DNA from: Polytrichum commune
Taxonomy: Eukaryota; Streptophyta; Polytrichopsida; Polytrichales; Polytrichaceae
Direction of reading: 5' to 3'
DNA length: 64,000 nt
NCBI GenBank assembly: GCA_950295325.1
Contig: OX485807.1
Coordinates: 186,501 to 250,500 of the forward strand
This document shows, piece by piece, positions 3,379 through 47,891 of the stretch. Positions within the stretch are counted from its first letter, which is position 1; every line of letters starts with the position of its first letter. The translations under genes and the position numbers were made by a program. The notes beneath the pieces are model-generated. The model searched no databases, was not told the DNA's origin, and worked only from the letters and a program-made list of their open reading frames with translations.

Positions 3379-5415
3379 CTATGTGTGAATACAAAGTGTT
3401 TTGTGTCTATCTTCATCTTGATTCGATTCGTGAGGTATATAGTCCCTTTGTGTATGATTAGAACCGTCACTCAAAGATGGCATGCTTACACTTGGTTTGT
3501 CAGTTGATGCTGCTGGTGCAATCTGAGAATGTGGGATAGAAACTGCAACACTTTCAATATGGGGTTCTATGGATTTAGGCATGATGTCTACGGTTTGAAT
3601 ACCCATAGTCTCATGTATAACAACATCCACCCCAACATAAATCCTCTTGGTACTGGGGTCCCAAAGTCGATATGCTCTCCTTTTTTGGTCATACCCGACT
3701 AGTAGAAGCTTCTGACTCTTAGCATCTAACTTGGTTCTGTGTTTTTTTGGAATGTGAAGATACGCATCGCTACCAAAAGCTCGGAAATAAGACACATCAG
3801 GTACCTGTCGGAACATTTGTTCGAATGAAGCAGTGTCTGTAAGCTGCCTGTTGACTGTGCGATTCCAGACAAACACGGCTGTGCTAGCAGCTTCGGCCCA
3901 GAGGGTCAAAGGTAAGTCTCTGGAGTGTAGCATACTCCTTGTGGCTTCCACAATGGTCCTATTGTTACGTTCTATGAAACCATTTTGTTATGATGTATAT
4001 GCAGCCAAAAACTCATGTATAATACCTTGCTCTTGGGTATAACTTTCAAATTGATGATTCTTAAACTCTCGCCCTTGGTCTATCTTAATCCTTTGGATAT
4101 CAACCTGAAGCTTTTGCTTCATCAATGAATATAGTTGCTTCAAATAGGTTAGAGCTGCTGATTTTGTTTTCAAAAAGAAAATAACCATGTAGCTTGTATT
4201 GTTATCCTTACATAGCATGAAATAGGATGCTCCTCCCAAAGATATAGTACTCATGGGGCCGCACAAGTCTATGTGAAAATACGTACCAGGTGCAGTATCT
4301 CTTTCCTTTTCTGGAAGTGTCGGGTAAGTGTTTACTTGTTGTTTGCCAAGTACACAACCTTCACAAAAAAAATTGTCAGTCTTCTTGTTTGTATTAACAT
4401 GCCATGAACTGCCTTCTCAGTTTGCCATAGTGTGTGTGAGTTGATGTGACAAAAACGATGATGCCATAACTCAATGTTGTCCATCTGTGGCCGTTTGGTA
4501 AAGTGTTTCTCTCCGTGTTTGCTGTAGTCTCCGGCAGTTTATGTAGGCTTATTGGAATCAGACGCTCTGGTTGAGACTCAGTATGCATATGATGTTTCTT
4601 CATCCATAACTATTGCCTTCATCTGTAATTTGTATAGACTGCTCCCTGTGCGTATTCTTGTCAACAGTATGTCTCCATTTCCATTGTTACCAATCATTTG
4701 ACAAGTGTTCTTCATGTAGATAGTGACTACTCCTCTGTCTACAGCTCCTCCGATGGAAAATATATTAGTTCTGAGGTCAGGTATATATAAGACATCATGT
4801 AGAGTTCCATCTAACCATTGGTCATGTGCTTTTCTCTTGATTTTGATGTCTCCCTTTCCTAATACCCACAGGCTCTGTTCATTTGCAATGGCAACTGGCC
4901 ATGTACCCTTGGGTATCTCCTTGAAGTTAATGAAAGCGGCGCGGTTATCTGACATGTGTTCTGTGGCTCCAGCATCAGCATACCATACTTCTTCACTATT
5001 GTCTTTTGCAAGTAATGCTTCCGACAAAAGAGTTCGCAGCATCGACTGTGTGACGAGAGCAACGGTATCTTTTGACTCTATGACTCTTGCTGCACTCTTG
5101 CTTGTCTCAAGTCCTTTGTGGCCATATCTTTTGAAGTCTTTTCTTGAACATATGCCATCCTGCCACCAATGTCCAATCTCTCCACAGCCATGGCATCTAG
5201 ATTTTTTCTTCAATTCTTTGATGCGCTCGCTATTGTATTTGTTTTTTGTGTCTGCTCGTGTGTGTTCATTTCTTCTTCTCTTTCGTACTAACAATGCACT
5301 CTCAGTTTCTTCGCGCTCTCTAGTTCTGATCATATTATATGTTTGGATTAACAATACCTCCGCACATAGCTGTCATCAACCATTCATTCCAAGCACGGTT
5401 GCCTTGATTTGTTGA
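3379..5415 (-). pseudogene. Ty1/copia gag-protease-integrase remnant
   Basis: Read on the minus strand, the order is gag tail, protease, integrase. At about 5200-5130 there is a degenerate zinc knuckle (C-H-G-C-G-E-I-G-H). At about 4990-4950 comes the protease motif W-Y-A-D-A-G-A-T-E-H-M, with alanine where serine is usual. At about 4440-4330 lies a gag-pre-integrase HH/CC-like segment, split by frame changes and stops. The integrase core follows, with K-I-D-Q-G-R-E-F and then W-A-E-A-A-S-T-A-V-F-V-W-N-R at about 3880. A TAA replaces the residue before Q-N-G near 3988. Reverse transcriptase and RNase H are absent beyond 3379. The many lesions show it is dead, and its orientation is opposite to the neighbouring copia piece. 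Confidence 0.9.
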
Positions 5416-36000: not shown

Positions 36001-36750
36001 GTGGGTGAGTGTTGGTTACTTCGAATGGACGAAGCACAATGGGCACTTAGGCACGCTATTCTCATTGATGTTTTGTGCAAATAAGGAGAATGGGGTCCGC
36101 GTTCTCAGCAAATCCCATGGTATGCAAATTGTTGAATAATATCACTCCAATTTTTGTTTGTTGCGTCAATTATTTAACAATTTATATAGGAGCTATCCAA
36201 AGTTGCATGAGAGAGACAAAATTCTATTCTAGATATTAAACTTGACCTCATATTTGATTCTTATCATTGATTCATCCTTGAATATTCAAGAGTTTGTCAT
36301 CCCACACAACTTGTTTAATCGACTCTTCTTAGGTACCTCACTTGTCAACGTATAGGTACAATTGATCATTCTACATATTTGAAATTGGTTTCCATTTAAC
36401 CTAAGAGTGAGCTATAATATGAGAAAGAGAATAATATGGGCAACAGAATTTGTTCCCACGTTGCCTTATATGCATAATTTGTATTAAAGAAACTCAAATT
36501 CAAGACAAAATTAGGTTGAGTTTCCAATGTGGTCATCATACAAGTAAAATTTTAGTGAATGATCCACAAAATGGGATCCAATGGAATGAATCTCCCATAC
36601 ATTGCACATTAGTTTATTGTATTTGGCAACTTTTGAAGTTATCTACAAAATTATAAAGGATGTGGTTATTATGCCCCGAGGGTATAATACCAAGGGTGGG
36701 TCGAACGGCCATTTCAATCACGCTGACCTATGGTCAACGTTTCTTCTCTT
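30093..36750. other. Long intergenic region with transposon-like traces
   Basis: About 6.6 kb without a credible host gene. A minus-strand frame at 30294-30515 rich in Trp (I-L-W-I-T, M-W-P-N-I-G-T-Y-W) and neighbouring broken frames up to 30100 look like a decayed element protein that I cannot name. Short tandem duplications occur at 31562-31645 (TCCTCTAGTCT...TAGTAGAGTCA twice) and 33580-33680 (ATTACATTTCTATTGACTAC twice, about 66 bp apart). Confidence 0.45.
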
Positions 36751-36755
36751 CTCTC

Positions 36756-36761
36756 TATAAA
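36756..36761 (+). promoter_or_regulatory. Candidate TATA box of the PKA-R gene
   Basis: TATAAA within a pyrimidine-rich TTCTCTTCTCTC context, 97 bp upstream of the proposed start codon at 36858. An in-frame TAA at 36852-36854 supports translation starting downstream of it. Position and sequence fit a plant core promoter, but this is inference. Confidence 0.4.
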
Positions 36762-36857: not shown

Positions 36858-39800
36858 ATGAGCAATGGCCTTATTCGACTTGAAATGGAATACCTTCAAG
36901 TTGTAATATTGGGGTGCAATCAACCTCAAGATGCAACAATGTACTTAATACGATATATTTATAAGTATGTTGTTATAGGCTTGTTCACATACTATTGTTT
37001 TGGAACAATCACTATATACTCACTTTTTAAAAAGGATATTATATTAGAACATGTTTATCTTCACATGGCAATTGCTATGACCTAAAGTGAAAGTTCTTGA
37101 AAAACTAAGACCATTGTGGTTACAAGCCATATTATTGTCATGTATCAATTGGAATGATGGCCACATTGGTTCCAATTGCCCCAACCAATTCGTAAGTTGA
37201 AAGAAAGATCCAACATAAGCATCAAAGAGGAGTCACATTTGGTTCTATATAAAGCACCTAGACCATGTGCACTTGAAATCACATGAAATATGCATTTTGA
37301 AAGACGGTGCTCCATAATAAAGTTGATGTGCAATTCAAAATTGTTATGTAAACTAGCAATCTATTTAGCAATAACCAAGTCATTTTAGATATGTCACCAA
37401 ATGTGATTTGTTTTGTAAGTTATAATTTTTGTAAATTCCGGATTTATGTGGCAATGTGGCAGTCAAAAGATAGGCGCAAGAGAACATTGTCATTTCGTAG
37501 GACTGGGGTGAGTGCCGAGTGTCGGCGTTCAGATGATATTTATGTGCCCAAGGTAACAAGTTGATCAATGTGCAAGCTTGTCGTCAATTCCCACAATATT
37601 ACATTCCATATGTGCACAAATGTTAGATTTTACAACATTTGATGTTATAGAAAGAAAATTGCAGGTCATCCACAAATCAGAGGATGCACGAAAGCGGATC
37701 ACTCGTGCTATTGAGAAAAGCTACATATTCAAAGGGCTTGACAAGGAGCAAATCAAAACAGTAGATTCTCATCAACCATCCCTTGTATGATAATAATGCT
37801 GCATTCACGATGCAAACACAATCAAAATAACCATTTTTTTCAAATGAAACAAAAAGGTATATTTATGCATGTTTTTTGTACAAATGATATAGAAGATCAT
37901 CAATTTTGGCATAATATTATATACATATGCTTAATGAGAGGTCCCCACATCGATTTCAAATTACATTTTTACAAGTTTTATCTACATAAGTGTATTTGAG
38001 TCAATATTAGATTACATATCATACCTTGAGCATTGTATATAATATTAATATATAATACTAAGCATTGTTCATACTGCGTGATTAGTATATTCTAAGTGAG
38101 AGTAAGAGATTCAAATGTGATTCCACATGAATGCATTATTCATCCTCCATAAGAATAATTGTGTGATATATTAGGTTGTCGTTATCACATGTGATTTGTG
38201 GCTATTTTTATGTACTCATTGAGTTAATTAAGGTCAATTACCATCAAATCATTTCATATTCTAGTAATATTGTGATTTATTAAACAATTAAGCTTTGACA
38301 CAAAAGATTGCAGTCTCCTCTCACCTCAAGCATGATTGTAACCATTTTTCTTGTAGCCCGCATGTGGGTGTCATTTTTATGTCAATTTTGATAGATTTTT
38401 GAATTTTCAAAGAAGTAGATTGAAAATTTATTATGACCTTTAACAACTAATATCAATATCTAAATTATGTGGAGAGGGTTGTGAAGGTTATAGATGCGGT
38501 TGAAGAAGAAAAACATTACAAAGGTGATACGATAATCAAACAAGGGGAGTCAGGGACCAGTTTCTACCTTATTGAGGCAGGGTCATGTGAAGTGTGGTTG
38601 AAACGACAAGAAGGGCAAGATCCACAAATGGTGCATCATTATTCATCGGGGGATAGCTTTGGAGAATTAGCCCTCCTCTATGATGCCCCTCGTGCAGCCA
38701 CTGTTAAGGTCCAACATCTCCCAAGAAACCACATTACTTGCCAGCCGGATTGTGTTGCAATCTCTCTCTCACACACACCCACAGTTGAAGAATATTTGTT
38801 TCCCAAAAGTATAGTGCCATTTAAAAAGTTAGGTTTTTCTCCAATGGTTAAATTAGGGACCATCTTTTCCCATCATTGTTCCCTAGTTTGTATATTGACA
38901 TCAATTTTGTGTTTATCATAATTTATAATATGACATATACTTGACCTATACATCAATTGGGTGGATTGTTGCGGGCAACATGACATTCTTTTAGATAATA
39001 GTGCTTTGACCCTTAGCAAGGAGCAACTTGAATCAATTGGATATATTTGATAGCACAAGGATTGACATGAATGTGGAATCAAAATACATTGAACTCGAAG
39101 GATTACAACATTTAAGATTTTTTTTTTCTTTTATTTTTTTGGGGGGGGGGGGGGCGGAGAGAAAAAAATAAAAATAAAAATGTGTAAGCAAAACAATCAA
39201 TAACACATGAAACCTTCATGTGATATGTAACATGTGACATGAAACCTTTGTGTTGGGACTAATGCACTCTTATTTATTGTATATATGTTCATGAATTATA
39301 ACTTCATAGAATAGTCTTTTGTACCATTTTCATTGTCAAAGGATGCAACAATGCTTATATTTTTATTGTGTTACCATGCTTTTATGCACTCGATTTTGTA
39401 GGCTAGTACAGATTGCATCTTGTGGGCTATGGACCGTGGAACTTTTAGAGCAATCCTGATGACTTCAACAAGTCAAAAAAGGGATTTGTATGAAGATTTC
39501 CTACAAAATGTCCCGCTTCTCAAGGTCCCTCCTTGTTGCAACCAAGAGCCTTCTTCATTTCATCATTTAATTGAGATACAGCAATAAAATTATTGAATCT
39601 CATGCAACATGTTTTGTGTCATTGAACAAAAAAAGATGATAAATTTATAATTTCTCGAGTGATACATGGTGATTCCACCAATGCATAACATCGCTAAGCT
39701 CCACCAACTGCCACTTATCATGCTAGACAAGAGAATAATTTGGCCAAGGATTGGGATTAAACAAGTTGTGATCCTCGAAGTTAAGAACTTTGGCTTGAGT

Positions 39801-42255
39801 GTTGGGACAAGGCCCCCATGGAATATGACTTCTTTTTTAATTGAATGGGCGAGGCATCACAAGGCTTAGTAATGTTATGTGCAAGACATATTACTTGGGA
39901 CTTATATGCTTGTATTTAGAGGAGTACAAATAAATTAGAATGACATTGATTCGTTTTACAGACCCTAGACAAGTATGAAAGATCGGCCATTGCAGATGTA
40001 TTGGAGGCTGAATATTTTGACCAAGGTGCCACTATCATAATGGAGGGCGCACCTGGTGACAAGTTTTATTTTCTAGAAGAGGTGACTTAACACTTATTAA
40101 CAATGACAACATTTCTATGGCATAAAAAAGCACGTGGCTTTGATTTATTATATGCATGCACCATTCTATATTGAGAAGTGGGAGGTGAAGCAAGGAGCAA
40201 GGTGCCAACTTAAGGTTTAGCATAGTTTTACTTATTAAATAAGTTTTTTTTTATATTCATGATTATATTTTTAATGGATGTAATCATAGCCAACTACGTA
40301 CATTGATATTAATGGCCCCACTTATAGAAATGAGATATCTAAACTCATTCTAGGTTGTTTTTATTTAAATCTTAGATGTCGATACATATGACAATAAGCA
40401 TGTGATGATAAATAATGTTGATGTTTTTTGGCTAGTGACACTAAATACAATGATTAATGCAATATTTTTACTTGTTATTAATGTTGCATATGGTGCATTT
40501 TTTGATGTGTTTATTTTATTTCATAAACAATAGTGAATGCGGGCAACAAATTAAGTGCATCGAATATGTAGGGAACAGCTGAAGCACGCACGAAAGGTCA
40601 AGTGGTGATGAGATACCAAAAAGGTGATTATTTTGGTGAATTGGCACTCTTAAACAATGAGCCAAGAGCAGCAACTGTGTTGGCATCTAGCAATTGCAAA
40701 GTTGTGTCTATTGATGGTGAAAGCTTCAAGGTTGGTCTTGCACTACTCGTGATATATTCGCATAGGGTGCATTATACTTCTACGTAGACGATCAATTGTC
40801 CTTAAAATTAAATTTTCCATATTTGATGTATTTATCATAAGGTGCCTTCTTAAATCAACTTTTCTTGATCCAAAAATGAAGATATAGAGTAGATGAATTA
40901 TGAGTTATAAATGCCATGAATTTGTAAGGTTTTAATCCTTTCATATTATAGGAAATAAGCATGGGCATGTTGCTACACTATCCACCTGCCAATTCATAAC
41001 ATTCAAAATAATCGAGTTGTTACATACAAATGCATTTGGATCTATTTAAATTATAAATAGGGTGTCAACAACATGTTTCCTCCATGAATGTTTGTTTGAA
41101 GCAAAAGCAACCAACCTATGAGCAAATTATTATGCAATGGTTGGGACTCCTTGTCTAAGCTTCTTTGTAAAGACATTGAGGATTTGGCTAGCAATTTGAG
41201 TGGCTTGCATTCTTATCCATCTTGCAATTGTCACTAGCCATACGAAGATGACAAGCTATGTTTCACCAAAGTATTGTCCAATGAGCATGTTGGTGTCATG
41301 GACTTTAGAACCAATTTCATCTTATTTCATTGTGGGTTACCAAGCCACCAAAGGTGTGTTGTGTCCTTGGCAAGTTTAGTCACGAGGGAGAATATAGCAT
41401 TTAGATAATCACGCATGCCTTGAATAGCTTTCTAATATTAAGTTTTTGGTTCATATAAATATTGTAAATAGGAATTGGTACAAAACATGTATGGATGTAA
41501 ACTACTAAAACAAAGGGTCCCATGATTTTTTCATAAATCCTTCATCATCCGTAATGCAGAGGTTAACTTTCAAGATATTTCCTCATGTTGTGTGATTCAA
41601 ATACTCTTATCTATATTGCTTAGAAGAGTTGTGTGCCCTTATGTTATATATTACAAGTCACATGTGTGTCACTTTTGTAGTTCAACATTCCATGTATGGG
41701 TTGGAATTGATGTGGATGTTTGGAATTAGAGTGACCCAACACTAATGATAGATTGGATGAAATGACAGAAGTAATATTTGACTACCCAATCTAAAATACA
41801 AGCATAATTAACTATTCATGTCAATGACATTTCCATTATTTGGCTCCATTGTGATGTTTGTGAGAGCATGTACCGATCATTAAATTATATGTTGGACAAG
41901 TAAAATAATGAAAATGACATTAAAACATTGACGGAGTATCCTCAAGCAAGATTACATCTTTAGTATGGGATTCGTTAAAACAACCACAAAGACACATTGC
42001 ACGGTCACATGATTTGTCAAAATTTGAACCATTATAGTTGTAGGTAGAAATGTAAAGGAAGAGTTGACAAGTTGGCCTCACGAAGAACATAATTGTTTTT
42101 CTTTGTTTTAAGTTGCCTTTAATTCATACATGATGTTAGATTTTTTTTACATGACTTATGTGATTGATGATGAACAGAGGTTGTTGGGCAAGCTCGAGGA
42201 CATCCTTCAACGGAAGAAGGCTGAATATGCAAATGCATCTTCAAGTTGTGATTGA
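36858..42255 (+). CDS. cAMP-dependent protein kinase regulatory subunit (PKA-R), 8 exons, about 327 aa
   Basis: Proposed exons: 36858-36964, 37474-37552, 37665-37760, 38487-38708, 39402-39524, 39962-40081, 40572-40730, 42178-42255. All introns are GT-AG and all but the first lie between codons. The protein has the classic R-subunit order. Exon 1 is a short helical docking-like segment (Q-P-Q-D-A-T-M-Y-L-I-R-Y-I). The inhibitor site F-R-R-T-G-V-S-A-E (44-51) has Gly at the phosphorylation position, as in type I R subunits. Two cyclic-nucleotide domains follow. Both phosphate-binding cassettes are intact: FGELALLYDAPRAATV (E154, R163) and FGELALLNNEPRAATV (E272, R281). Alanine after the arginine favours cAMP over cGMP. 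The end, R-L-L-G-K-L-E-D-I-L-Q-R, matches the R-subunit C-terminal helix. No kinase or membrane domain is attached, so it is neither PKG nor a CNG channel. Family knowledge: R subunits inhibit the PKA catalytic subunit until cAMP binds. Exon 1 and the first junction are the least certain; from 37665 on I am confident. Confidence 0.88.
39121..39163. repeat. Poly-T / poly-G homopolymer tract in a PKA-R intron
   Basis: A long T-rich run passes directly into about fourteen consecutive G and then a purine-rich stretch. It lies within the intron between the two halves of the first cyclic-nucleotide domain and does not affect coding. Homopolymers this long are prone to length error. Confidence 0.85.
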
Positions 42256-43996
42256 CCTAATAGAGAAGGATGCTACTTAAATCTACCCAAGTTCTTCCTC
42301 TATTGAATTCATACATTATATTAAATCATAAATAGATCACCTCATCAAACAATTGTGTGGGGGAGAAACTTGATGCATCCTTTGCATTGTAGTTTATTTG
42401 AGAAATGTTACCTAGAGAAGTGCTTATAGTGACGTTGAGAAATGACATCCAATTGTTGTTGGCTAACATCTTTATCCCTAGCAATGTCAACATGCAATGT
42501 TCTTGTGCAACATTGACATGCACAACTTCTACAAATAAATTCCTCGTTGTCCAAAAACTTTGTTGTTGGATTTTTTATGCTTGAATCATAAACTCTCAAA
42601 AGGTTTGTGACCTTGTTTATTCACAATCAATGTCAACACCGATATAGCCTGTGATCAATTTTTCTTATTTACATTACTATACAACTCCCATTTCCTCTAT
42701 AGGCGGACATTAATATGTGATGTATGATATATCTTTGAATTATTGCATTATAAAAAAAACCCTCTTGTGACCACTCATTTTGTTGAATTTGCGTGGACAT
42801 TACAATAGCTTGCACAATAATTGACGTCTAAGCATATATAGTCCAACCACAAGTATCAATGGGCATGGCTATAATAATAATTTATTTATTGCGATCAAGT
42901 AAATAAAAGAATAAAAACCAAAGTTGGAGTGTACACCCAATTATTTTGTTGTTAAAAAGGTGATGACTTAAAGTTTGTGTGAACCACACAATTATCCTCA
43001 ATATGGATGCTCATAATTGATTTTCCAATAAGAGAGCGTTGGGACCAACTATAGGTTGACCTAAATGAGAGGCATTTGGTAATATGTTTGTGCCAACTTT
43101 TGGCTTCAAAAATTCATAGTAATTTCAATTTAAGGAATAAAATGACCTTAAATTTGCAGTCCTCATGATTTCTATCTTCCTACACAAGAAAAGTTTGCAG
43201 CACCTTATGCTTCTTTATATATGGTTATAAGTGCCTCTACTCTATATTGAGTATAATTTTCTACTCAACCTTTGGGTGTTGTCAGAGTTTTGTAGTGTGG
43301 ATGTGGGTGTCATACTAATCAAGGGATGATAGGGGTTTGGTGACTCTCTAGGTGACATTTGTTTAGCATTAGAATGGCAAAGTGTTTGAGTGCAATCATG
43401 TTCATTTGTTTTAGACATGTATGCATGTTTTTCTTTTTCTTTTTCTTTGGCACAAATTGAAAAAATTCATGTATGTATGTCTTGAAGGGAATATGAAATT
43501 AGTTGCGAAAGGCATGGATGCCACCTTGGACCTTGGTGGTGATGATACTATTAAGTGGGTGACCAACGTTTATCTTCAAGCGTGTCGACAAGGGTTTGGT
43601 CCAGTGCCTGGGAAGTTTTTGAGCACAGTCGGTCAAGATCCTAGTGATTCTAATTCCAGCCGGTTACATGTTCACATCTTCCAGTTTTGCTTTATTCATT
43701 TGAGGTATAGAATCTACAGATTCCTCTCAAATGATAGGTAATTCTCCTGAAGTCTCGAACCTCAACCGGTTATTTCTCAAACTCAACCCGTTCATCTGTA
43801 ACTAACTGACAGTTCTCCCCGGACAGTGGTTTGGTCATTGTCTTTCAGGCTTGTGTATTGCTACTGTACAGTACTGTATACCATAGAAAAACGTGAGTTC
43901 AATGAACTGGATTTTCGTGCTGTTTTTGGTTGTTGGTATGATGATTGAAGTGGAGGGTTGAAAACTTTGCAAGGAGGATGCAGGGTTTGAGGCATG
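42256..43996. other. 3' flank of PKA-R and intergenic sequence
   Basis: No gene recognised. A plus-strand frame at 43421-43741 holds a more protein-like stretch (M-D-A-T-L-D-L-G-G-D-D-T-I-K-W) that I cannot assign. It may be a decayed exon or chance. Confidence 0.4.
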
Positions 43997-44193
43997 TAAG
44001 AGCATCCCTAATGGGACCCTCAACGGGTCTCGGCAACGGCCCTTGGCGGGCCCGCGGCAGTAAGTGGGACCCAACGGCCACGGCACAGCCCCCGCATTAT
44101 TTATGGGCCTCGCCAGACTTGGCCCTCTCTCGCCAATTATTCGCGTTTTGCAGGGAGATAATTCCGGGACGCCATCATCGAGTCAACGCCAGG

Positions 44194-46184
44194 ATGGCAA
44201 CGGGGGAGGCGGGAAAGGGGAAGAAGGGGAAGAACTTCAGCGCTGATGAGGAGAGGGCCTTGTGCCGGAGTTTTTTGGCGGTTTCGCAGGATCCTGTCTG
44301 TGGCAATGGCCAACGCAACACGGCATTTTGGGAGCGCATCACAACAAATTACAACCACAACAAACCAAGATCATGTCCTATCCGTCCTGCTAGGTCTCTA
44401 GAATCGAAGTGGAGTCACATCAAACACGATGTTGCAAAATTCAGTGGTGTATTCAAGCAAGTCTCAGATTGTAGGGAGTCCGGGGCATCTGCTGAGGATG
44501 TTTTAGAGAGGGCGCTTGAGTTTTACAAGGATCGACATCCCAAACAGCAGGGATTTGCATTTCTACATTGCTGGCACCTCCTTAAGGAGGTGCCGAGGTG
44601 GTGGCAGTCGGCCCAGGATATTCAACGTCGTGGTTCCGGAGCCGGTGCGGCGTCGCCGGTTGCCATGGCTAATGCCACTGCTGCAGAGGTCAATGGTGGT
44701 TTACAAGCCGAATGCGGGGAAGCAGGCGAGGAGGATGACGTGCAGGTGGTGAAGCAGGTGAATTTCCCGAGCCGGCCCACACGACCCCAGGGAAGCAAGG
44801 CGGCGAAGGCAGATCTGGTTGACCAGACCAGGCGGGATTCGATACTGCGATCCCAGGCTCTAGCGACGGAGCAGATGGCGAGAGCAAACATGCGGAAGGC
44901 CGAGGCAATGGGGGACCACGCCGCGATGTCCCTGTTCCGAATGCCCATCGAGGATGTCGACGAGGAGGCTCGGGAATACTTCAAGCTGCGGCGCAAGGAG
45001 GAGCTGGAGCGCATTAAGCGCCGGATGGAGCAAGAGCAGCGAGTTGCGGAGCGGGAGAGGATCGAACACGAGAAGCTGCTTCGGGAAAGGGCCGCCGACC
45101 ACCACCGCACCAAGCGACCGAGGGTGCAATCGAAGACACCTGTGCTCCCCCAATCTGAACCAGAACCCACAATGTCGCCGAATGTGCCCCGCTCCGACGC
45201 CACCCCGGCTCCCCCGACCCCAGGTCCTCTTCCTGCTGTGGAGGAGGATTCCCCGGTGCAGCCAGATCTCGGTGAGTTTTTGTTTTTTTTTGTGGCATCT
45301 ACTTAGGGTTTGGGTACATTGCTAGTTCGGTGTTTTTTTTTTGCAAAGACTGGTTGTGAATGCTGGGATGAGGCTGCAAGTTAGGTTAGGTTTTTTTTTG
45401 CAAAGACTGGTTGTGAATGCTGGGATGAGGCTGCAGGTTAGGTTAGGTTTTTTTTTTGCTAAGACTGGTTGTGAATGCTGGGATGAGGCTGCAGGTTAGG
45501 TTAGGTTTTTTTTTGCTAAGACTGGTTGTGAATGCTGGGATGAGGCTGTAGGTTAGGTTAGGTTTTTTTTGCAAAGACTGGTTGTGAATGCTGGGATGAG
45601 GCTGCAGGTTAGGTGTTTTTTTTTTGCAAAGACTGGTTGTGGATGCTGGGATGAGGCTGCAGGTTAGGTGTGTTTTTTTTTTGCAAAGACTGGTTGTCAA
45701 TGCTGGTTGTCAATGCTGGGTTTATGCTGCAGGTTAGGTTAAGGGTTTTTTTTTTTTGCAAGCAGTGGTTGTCAATGCTGGTTGCTAGGCTGCAAGTTAG
45801 GTTAGGTGGTTTTTTTTTTTTTTGCAAGCACTGGTTGTCAATGCTGGTTGCTACATGTAGGGATGAGGGTGCAGTTAATGGTTTTTTTTTTGTAAGGACT
45901 GACTGAGTGTGGTTGCTGGTTTCTGTGCAGATGATGCACAGGCTGATCATTGGGATGACTCGCAACCCATCCCGGATACACAACCTTGCGGGGAATCTCC
46001 AATACCCCAGCTGAGATTTGGAGAGAATAGACCCCCTGTTTTTGCACAACAAGGGTCTATGTTTAGTTTAGGGAATAGCTTTGGTTTAGATGCACATCAC
46101 TCACCCATTGTAGAAGGACAAATGTATGGATTCAGAAATTTTGGGCAAGGATTGAACCTTAATGCCCGATTCTTTACACAATAA
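44194..46184 (+). CDS. Harbinger-associated SANT/Myb-like DNA-binding protein, 2 exons, 443 aa
   Basis: Exons 44194-45271 and 45931-46184; the GTGAGT donor and TGTGCAG acceptor restore the frame (1332 nt). The start was chosen at the first ATG after the TIR region in this frame. It is followed by a basic G-K-G-K-K-G-K-N segment and the SANT-like fold F-S-A-D-E-E-R-A-L-C-R-S-F with tryptophans in the F-W-E-R-I and S-K-W-S-H-I positions. A long charged coiled-coil region rich in E-R-I/E-E-L-E lies around residues 260-310, then a Pro-rich linker. Such proteins carry or recruit the transposase to TIR DNA in the nucleus. The transposase gene lies tail to tail, 23 bp away. The intron contains a minisatellite. 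Confidence 0.88.
45329..45900 (+). repeat. Intronic minisatellite, about ten 55-60-bp units
   Basis: The unit is TTTTTTTTGCAAAGACTGG followed by TTGTGAATGCTGGGATGAGG and CTGCAGGTTAGGTTAGG. The first six or so units are nearly identical and the last four have diverged (GCAAGCAGTGG, GCAAGCACTGG, GTAAGGACTG). It lies entirely inside the intron of the Harbinger DNA-binding gene, so copy number can vary without changing the protein. Confidence 0.92.
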
Positions 46185-46207
46185 CGAGTTACATTTCATT
46201 GTGCAAT

Positions 46208-47518
46208 TCACAATCTTCTCCTTTGCCCTTTAATCATCCACAAATGGTCTATCAAATCATTTTGTAATGCAAAATGGGACTCTACATTCTCAACCTCTCT
46301 AGTGCTGGCTACCAAGTCCCTGAATGAGAAAGGAATGGGTGTGGTCTCCACAGGTAATCCCCAATCGGGAAATGGCTCTAAAGTTAGGCCCTTCTCATCT
46401 TCCAAAATCATGTTGTGCATAATAATGCAAGCGATCATGATGTTCTCAATAATACCTAAATCCCATTGCCGTACTGGATTCTTGATAATTTTCCACCTTG
46501 CTTGCAGGACCCCGAAAGCCCTCTCAACATCCTTGCGGGCACCCTCTTGACACTTCGCAAAGTGCTCCTTCATCTCACCCACAGGCTCGTGTATTGGTTG
46601 CACGAAACAAGCCCAGGCTGGATATATACCATCCGTCAACAGATAATAGCGGGGGTACACATGCCCATTTACCTGGAATCTAATGTCGTGACCTGCTCCC
46701 CGTAGCATGTTCAAAAGAAATGGAGAGTTATCAAGGACATTGATGTCGTTGTTGCCTCCTGGCAACCCAAAAAATGCATGCCATATCCACAAGCTCTGGT
46801 CGGCAACAGCTTCAAGGATGATGCTCCTGTTCTTGTCTTTGTCTTGGAACTGACCCTGCCATGCCACTGGACAATTCTTCCAAGTCCAGTGCATGCAATC
46901 CAAACTTCCAAACATCCCTGGAAATCCACGCTTCTCATTGATGGACATCTGCTTCTCTATATCATCTCTAGTAGGCTGTCTCAAATACGTGGCCTCAAAA
47001 CAACCTCGAATGGCAACTACAAACCTCTCCATGCACATCTGAGCAGTGGATTCTCCTAATTTGCAGTACTCATCACATGCATCAGCAGCTACACCATATG
47101 CCAACATACAGATGGCGGCAGTGCATTTCTGCAAGGAAGATAATCCCATACGACCTGTGGCATCAGGACGTTGTTTGAACCACGGATCAAAATGGACAAC
47201 GGTATCAACAATGCTTGTGAATAACTCCCTCCTCATCCTGAAACGTCTTCGGAACTTAACTGGCCCATACGTAGGACTCTCAGAAAAATAATCCTTGTAT
47301 AGGAGATTATGACAATGCTCCCTATCACGCCACACAAATTCTCTACCAACCGTACTCCCACCCACCTTGGGCCTGGTGGATGACTCACCCAATACCTCAG
47401 TAGAAAAAGCCTCAACCATCTGTAGGAATAGGTCATTCTCAAATTCCTCTTCCATGTCCTCATCAAACCCTAATCCAAACCCAAGGCTCCTCTCAAGCTC
47501 ATCCTCCCAACTCTCCAT
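46208..47518 (-). CDS. PIF/Harbinger DDE transposase, about 436 aa
   Basis: The transposase cuts and rejoins the element ends in the nucleus. The frame is open throughout; I prefer the ATG at 47518 (M-E-S-W-E-D-E-L) over an upstream one at 47560 that would add a hydrophobic leader. The DDE_Tnp_4 catalytic triad is visible: first Asp in F-G-S-L-D-C-M-H-W, second in G-N-N-D-I-N-V-L-D, and Glu in K-D-V-E-R-A-F-G-V-L-Q-A-R-W. Helical residues N-terminal to it (F-R-R-R-F-R-M-R) match the usual DNA-binding part. Length is typical of plant ALP1/Harbinger-like transposases. No lesion is seen. Confidence 0.93.
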   Translation of the reverse strand: MESWEDELERSLGFGLGFDEDMEEEFENDLFLQMVEAFSTEVLGESSTRPKVGGSTVGREFVWRDREHCHNLLYKDYFSESPTYGPVKFRRRFRMRRELFTSIVDTVVHFDPWFKQRPDATGRMGLSSLQKCTAAICMLAYGVAADACDEYCKLGESTAQMCMERFVVAIRGCFEATYLRQPTRDDIEKQMSINEKRGFPGMFGSLDCMHWTWKNCPVAWQGQFQDKDKNRSIILEAVADQSLWIWHAFFGLPGGNNDINVLDNSPFLLNMLRGAGHDIRFQVNGHVYPRYYLLTDGIYPAWACFVQPIHEPVGEMKEHFAKCQEGARKDVERAFGVLQARWKIIKNPVRQWDLGIIENIMIACIIMHNMILEDEKGLTLEPFPDWGLPVETTPIPFSFRDLVASTREVENVESHFALQNDLIDHLWMIKGQRRRL

Positions 47519-47891
47519 GACTAGAACAAAGTAGAGAAACAAAAAACTAAAAGTCCACACCCCTCACTCACCAATATTCACAGCAGCAGGAGGAGTAGCT
47601 AAAAATTCACAGCAGCAGGAGGGGCAGGTAAAAATTCACAGCAGGACGAGGAGCAGGTAAAAATTCACAGCAACAGGAGCTCCGGGAGAGAGAAGGAAGG
47701 CCACGAGGCCAAGAGAGGAAGGCCACGAGGACCCGCGACCTGCCAGGTAAGTGCTGCTTTTTCCTTGCCGGGGTCTCTTCACGGGCCACTGTTGGGGCAC
47801 ACGCTGGCCACTTCTCCCCGCGATTTTCGAGAGACCACGCCACAGCCCCTTGGCGAGTCACTATTTTGAGGGATGATTGGGGATGCTCTAA

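Follow-up and report, generated by a model that had tools for sequence, protein, structure and literature searches.

The 64,000-nucleotide stretch of the Polytrichum commune genome analysed here (the window; C5:186501-250500 in a 64-contig assembly of 407.8 Mb) carries on its forward strand, at positions 36858-42255, a gene whose sequence confirms it as that of a regulatory (R) subunit of the cyclic AMP (cAMP)-dependent protein kinase (PKA) in a plant genome. Its eight exons encode a predicted docking-like hairpin, an inhibitor site and two cyclic-nucleotide domains, and this combination of exon order, domains and motifs is far beyond chance. We estimate at about 0.87 the probability that the product (the R protein) is the R subunit of a plant cAMP-dependent kinase that restrains two kinases encoded on contigs C4 and C2 until cAMP arrives, likely in sperm motility. 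The exon structure, the domain order, the conserved residues and the single strong genomic match were computed directly, as were the CAPE-like, PKA catalytic subunit (PKA-C)-like, LEAFY and radial-spoke genes that the genome also carries.

The original prediction of an intron-split gene with eight exons at these coordinates is borne out by GT-AG joins at all seven introns, which give a frame of 984 nucleotides (327 residues) that runs to a TGA stop without frameshift or internal stop. Exon 1 (36858-36964) opens with the ATG and encodes the docking-like helical hairpin MSNGLIRLEMEYLQVVILGCNQPQDATMYLIRYIYK, the last codon being finished by exon 2; it is delimited by the open frame, the donor GTATGT and the helices predicted by AlphaFold2. 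Exon 2 (37474-37552), whose 5' boundary is uncertain, bears the inhibitor site RRTGVSAE. Cyclic-nucleotide domain A has its helical start in exon 3 (37665-37760), which aligns with RI and 5kbf, its β-barrel and the cassette FGELALLYDAPRAATV in exon 4 (38487-38708), and its end in exon 5 (39402-39524), together with the linker helix ASTDCILWAMDRGTFRAILMTSTSQKRDLYEDFLQNVPLLK. Domain B starts in exon 6 (39962-40081) and has its cassette FGELALLNNEPRAATV in exon 7 (40572-40730), and exon 8 (42178-42255) adds the C-terminal helix, a Tyr at the position of RI-alpha Y371 and the TGA stop. Exons 4 and 7 are each recognized on their own by the Pfam family cNMP_binding (E 1.1e-15 and 1.9e-11, respectively). 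Exons 2, 3, 5, 6 and 8 come from a splice scan, in addition to the joined frame for all five, PDB matches by phmmer for exons 3, 5 and 6, and residue comparison for exons 2 and 8.

The splice scan was confined to narrow stretches around each expected boundary, and yielded one phase-compatible donor/acceptor pair for each of introns 2, 6 and 7, two for each of introns 4 and 5, and four for intron 3; for introns 3, 4 and 5 the pair was picked according to how long an alignment with known R subunits it gave. The uncertain junction is that of intron 1, with 14 phase-compatible pairs, among which donor 36965 (GTATGT) and acceptor 37474 are preferred. With these joins, intron 1 is in phase 2 and the other six introns are in phase 0. 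All E-values from Pfam, PDB phmmer and genome searches with the R protein come from an earlier join, which has an extra Val at the exon 3/4 junction and another exon 1/2 join.

Pfam search of the R protein revealed two tandem cNMP_binding (PF00027) stretches with an E-value of 1.1e-44 and, at a threshold of E 0.1, no further family, neither RIIa nor a kinase. Search of the PDB with phmmer returned 165 distinct sequences at E 0.001, and the ranks given here are those of the best 60 of the 165. The top matches are PKA R subunits, namely 5kbf (7.4e-67), RI-beta (1.8e-63), 5j3u (1.9e-62), RI-alpha (9.3e-62) and 3of1 (4.8e-61), of which we take 5kbf to be from Plasmodium, 5j3u from Toxoplasma and 3of1 to be yeast Bcy1; RII follows at 2.3e-53 or weaker. 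The matches other than R subunits are PKGs, presumably apicomplexan, from 5.1e-49, mammalian PKG1 from 5e-38, and channels from 1.3e-14. Over aligned positions, the R protein is 42-45% identical to RI-alpha, RI-beta, Bcy1, 5kbf and 5j3u, 37-38% to RII, and 35% to PKG1, the one PKG row compared. By ranking and by identity the R protein is thus closer to the PKA R subunits than to PKG1, and by ranking also closer than to channels, as originally predicted.

The two cyclic-nucleotide domains with intact FGELALL...PRAATV cassettes, also part of that prediction, are matched by residue comparison as well as by Pfam. The equivalents of RI-alpha E200, R209, E324 and R333 are all retained in the R protein, in addition to that of Y371. 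The residue after each cassette Arg is Ala (equivalent to A210 and A334), as in the PKA R rows, compared to Thr in PKG1; Bcy1 makes an exception, with Gln after the Arg in domain B. An Ala next to the cassette Arg is a mark of cAMP preference. The expected R-R-T-G-V motif is present in exon 2, with Arg at both P-3 and P-2, a hydrophobic P+1 and Gly at P0. Judged from sequence, a Gly at the phospho-position would make this site an RI-type pseudosubstrate that is not phosphorylatable there.

The fusion to a kinase or membrane domain, which had been named beforehand as a sign against an R subunit, did not come true: the frame stops after domain B with the TGA of exon 8 and has no fused kinase, and a tblastn search of the whole window, with PKA-C alpha and with the C2 kinase as queries, gave no real match (best E 0.13), channel parts being outside this search. 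This bears on the alternative that the exons belong to a PKG-like gene or to a PP2C / cyclic-nucleotide-binding / kinase gene, instead of a stand-alone R subunit. The genome does hold such genes, with cyclic-nucleotide and AGC-kinase exons at C1:6.51-6.53 Mb, and PP2C, cyclic-nucleotide and kinase-like exons at C5:50.675-50.688 Mb, and PKGs are the next-best PDB group. Both loci fit what we take to be the PP2C / cyclic-nucleotide-binding / kinase family of Arabidopsis. However, the window gene possesses an inhibitor site, has Ala and not Thr in both cassettes, ends after domain B without a kinase in the window, and shares only 26-42% identity with the C1 gene over the five leading aligned pieces. 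The R gene is distinct from the C1 and C5:50.68 Mb genes, and the alternative appears very improbable. The kinase part of the C5:50.68 Mb gene reads YRGISPD, DFRFAK and CGMADF, which suggests that it is perhaps a pseudokinase.

Several points weigh against the reading of the gene as an R subunit at work in a cAMP-dependent kinase. Two PDB entries from 2e-39, which we take to be trypanosomatid R subunits, score below the apicomplexan PKGs (5.1e-49), so that the families are not cleanly divided by E-value alone. A 9-row tree leaves three of its six inner branches and the exact placement among R types open, and PKG1 forms a long branch that is set apart only under midpoint rooting. The equivalent of RI-alpha W260 is Tyr, likewise in Bcy1, 5kbf and 5j3u. 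Exon 1 matches neither RIIa in Pfam nor any PDB sequence by phmmer, even at E 10, and its local alignment to a piece of RI-alpha, which covers only the second half of the docking domain, is equalled or bettered by 1143 of 5000 shuffles. At the CAPE-like locus described below, the exon before the cyclase exon, read by eye as the first half of the domain, matched no Pfam family. Finally, that the R protein pairs with the kinases encoded on C4 and C2 is a step that we infer.

The HMMER check proposed for the gene thus came out for cNMP_binding, with two domains, but not for RIIa. AlphaFold2 modelling of the 36 residues of the docking-like part alone predicted a helix-loop-helix, with helices at residues 3-18 and 23-35 and a mean pLDDT that ranged over five models from 69.6 to 89.6 (the best), whereas sequence matches in Pfam and PDB and a local alignment above shuffles were missing. 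Aligned ungapped in the expected register, which was picked after looking, exon 1 was matched by only 34 of 20000 shuffles. Foldseek and VIA-align gave no significant match to the exon 1 model, against rows that lack a docking domain and are uninformative for a 36-residue hairpin. The assignment of the modelled hairpin as a docking/dimerisation domain is plausible but unproven.

Searched against the genome, the R protein gave 14 matches, of which the best eight are its own exons and the ninth (E 7.4e-6) lies on C1; apart from the R gene itself, the 408-Mb genome thus gave its protein no strong match. A genome profile search with PF00027 gave at least 10 matches (17 of 17 candidates scored), two of them in the R gene and two in the C1 gene, a count that is a lower bound because the C5:50.68 Mb gene was not listed.

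Two class I phosphodiesterase (PDE) exons were located by profile search at C3:45.263-45.264 Mb. They belong to a CAPE-like locus of ~13 kb (C3:45.2627-45.2759 Mb), in which the PDE exons are followed on one strand by stretches that look hydrophobic by eye and by a class III cyclase exon (26.1 bits in Pfam, compared to a cut-off of 21.9). We infer that the PDE and cyclase exons form one gene, and their order is the PDE-then-adenylyl cyclase order described for CAPE (PMC8115329). A genome search with PF00211 missed this cyclase exon and gave one match, a separate class III cyclase exon at C3:1.893 Mb (L004:6883-7533). The 500-base bin of the latter has 59% GC, compared to 32-51% in the other full bins, and a GDA1/CD39 phosphatase open reading frame (ORF) lies near it.

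In addition, the genome contains two intron-rich PKA-C-like genes, at C4:14.907-14.914 Mb (+) and C2:22.263-22.268 Mb (-). Read exon by exon, both have LGTGSFGRV, YRDLK, PENLLLDEKGN, DFGFAK, TYTLCG, GTPDYLAPE and a D(T/L)SCF(D/E)DY tail, and they carry the catalytic Lys, Asp and DFG together with the T-loop Thr, as seen by eye with approximate exon joins. The best PDB match of both is PKA-C alpha (1.5e-106 for C2 and 3.5e-94 for C4, the C4 join used lacking one exon that was located later), compared to 2.8e-73 and 9.6e-67 for PKG1. The two share 73% identity; identity to mouse PKA-C alpha is 58% (C2) and 55% (C4), to PKG1 45-47%, and to an S6K-like kinase from this genome 40%. A 5-row tree places both beside PKA-C alpha with a support of 91/95, which is under the starred level. 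On these sequence features, the C4 and C2 genes are read as putative PKA catalytic subunits. A genome search with the PKA-C C-tail gave 11 matches, with the C4 and C2 genes second and third; seven of the 11 were read, leaving out those at C7:41.79, C4:11.99, C7:6.24 and C7:6.01 Mb. A genome pattern search for GTPEYxAPE gave no match, a false negative because both genes read GTPDY and an intron falls at the motif, and a whole-length PKA-C search (116 of 660 candidates scored) missed both genes and was therefore not used for absence. Taken together, the R gene, the CAPE-like locus and the two PKA-C-like genes suggest that the whole cAMP-PKA module is present.

The R gene might still be a decaying or unexpressed copy with a non-working product, as the uncertain exon 1/2 junction, the three donors that start GTCC or GTTG and the lack of a second copy in the genome would allow. 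This is improbable in view of eight exons that stay in frame over 984 nucleotides, the conservation of the tested ligand-contact residues, and the CAPE-like and PKA-C-like genes kept in the genome.

We propose that two R chains would pair via the N-terminal hairpin, and that each would restrain a catalytic subunit by occupying its active site with RRTGV. The CAPE-like cyclase/phosphodiesterase may supply cAMP, which would bind to both cassettes and release the C4 and C2 catalytic subunits, probably in the control of sperm flagellar motility by analogy with Marchantia. An R-like protein could also act outside the cAMP-kinase pathway, in the way that certain trypanosomatid R subunits are responsive to other nucleosides; yet the canonical cassettes, the inhibitor site and the two PKA-C-like genes of the genome make such a role quite improbable. 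It is fairly probable that land plants with swimming sperm keep a complete and dedicated PKA holoenzyme of one R and two true PKA-C genes, beside CAPE. If this is true, the C4 and C2 genes would supply the kinase that the plant cAMP module has so far lacked, contrary to a 2023 review, which states that no typical PKAs have been found in the genomes of plants (PMC10952583).

LEAFY (four matches, best 7.1e-33) and a radial-spoke protein (five matches, four in one C1 locus, best 2.6e-38) were found in the same assembly and, by sequence, point to a plant with flagellate cells, in line with the setting of flagellate sperm that had been supposed. As the R subunit is best known from fungi, animals and protists, contamination from one of these was weighed as well. 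However, the window lies inside the 52.9-Mb contig C5, and a plant-type transposase 4 kb downstream of the R gene has at least 46 genomic matches, with 40 of 146 candidates scored. Four other full-length copies of this transposase are 100% identical, three on C1 and one on C4, which suggests recent activity and links the window with other contigs of the assembly. Contamination is therefore unlikely, and as the R gene shares at most ~45% identity with any of the eight non-plant rows, we give it hardly any credence; the plant origin of the contig stood. The transposase (Plant_tran, -) lies together with a NAM-associated ORF (+) at 43945-47560 of the window, both assigned by Pfam and presumably Harbinger-like. 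Retrotransposon pieces with SH3_retrovirus and Pol_BBD domains (Pfam) lie at 3379-5354 (-). About 100 bases upstream of the ATG of the R gene, a TATA-box-like TATAAA, a consensus match only, is found at 36756-36761 (+), with a second TATAAA at 36652.

Compared to known R subunits, the R protein has the same domain order as mammalian RI-alpha and RI-beta, with 43-45% identity and an RI-type pseudosubstrate with Ala or Gly at P0; the RI-beta inhibitor site, RRGGVSAE, resembles RRTGVSAE. It differs from them in lacking, under the preferred joins, a linker from the hairpin to the inhibitor site, in a docking part unmatched by profile, and in the change of W260 to Tyr. This Tyr is shared with 5kbf, presumably the Plasmodium PKA R, which is the best PDB match (7.4e-67) but only 42% identical and not grouped with the R protein in the 9-row tree. 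It is likewise shared with 3of1, which we take to be yeast Bcy1 (42% identity), whose inhibitor site, a part absent from the solved chain, presumably has Ser at P0, compared to Gly here. The PP2C / cyclic-nucleotide-binding / kinase proteins and PKG have cyclic-nucleotide domains in common with the R gene, whereas they differ from it by a fused kinase (and PP2C in the C5 gene) and by cassettes that are altered or contain Thr.

cAMP-PKA signalling in plants is disputed. Plant cNMP-dependent kinases have been termed controversial, and Solanum SBPK and tomato PKV are described as angiosperm kinases with PKA-catalytic-like motifs (PMC6174285). A plant R gene is not new in kind, because MpPKAR of Marchantia polymorpha has already been described as a PKA regulatory subunit that regulates the motility of sperm (PMC13190419, with reference to Yamamoto et al. 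2024 PNAS). Thus the original prediction is partly supported, being right about the molecule and too strong on novelty. Reportedly, the abstract of that 2024 paper assigns sperm motility to a cAMP module made up of CAPE and two PKA-R genes. CAPE is also present in Marchantia (PMC5159850, PMC8115329), and its distribution tracks motile sperm with one exception (PMC8115329), and a 'cAMP-dependent protein kinase', R or C unstated, is expressed in its antheridia (PMC5159850). Beyond this antheridial remark, the plant-PKA literature searched gave no text on non-seed plants in which PKA-C genes accompany an R gene, although Yamamoto et al. 2024 may hold it. The R subunit alone is a further plant example beside Marchantia, with no new principle, whereas the pair of catalytic genes is the better and more open lead and gives kinases to test. 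The occurrence of cyclase/PDE-like, R, C-like and flagellar genes in one plant genome supports an ancestral sperm cAMP-PKA module that is kept where sperm swim. The 2024 abstract reportedly speaks of two PKA-R genes, compared to the one found in the present genome. By its description, MpPKAR is a gene of the same kind as the R gene, likewise from a plant whose sperm swim.

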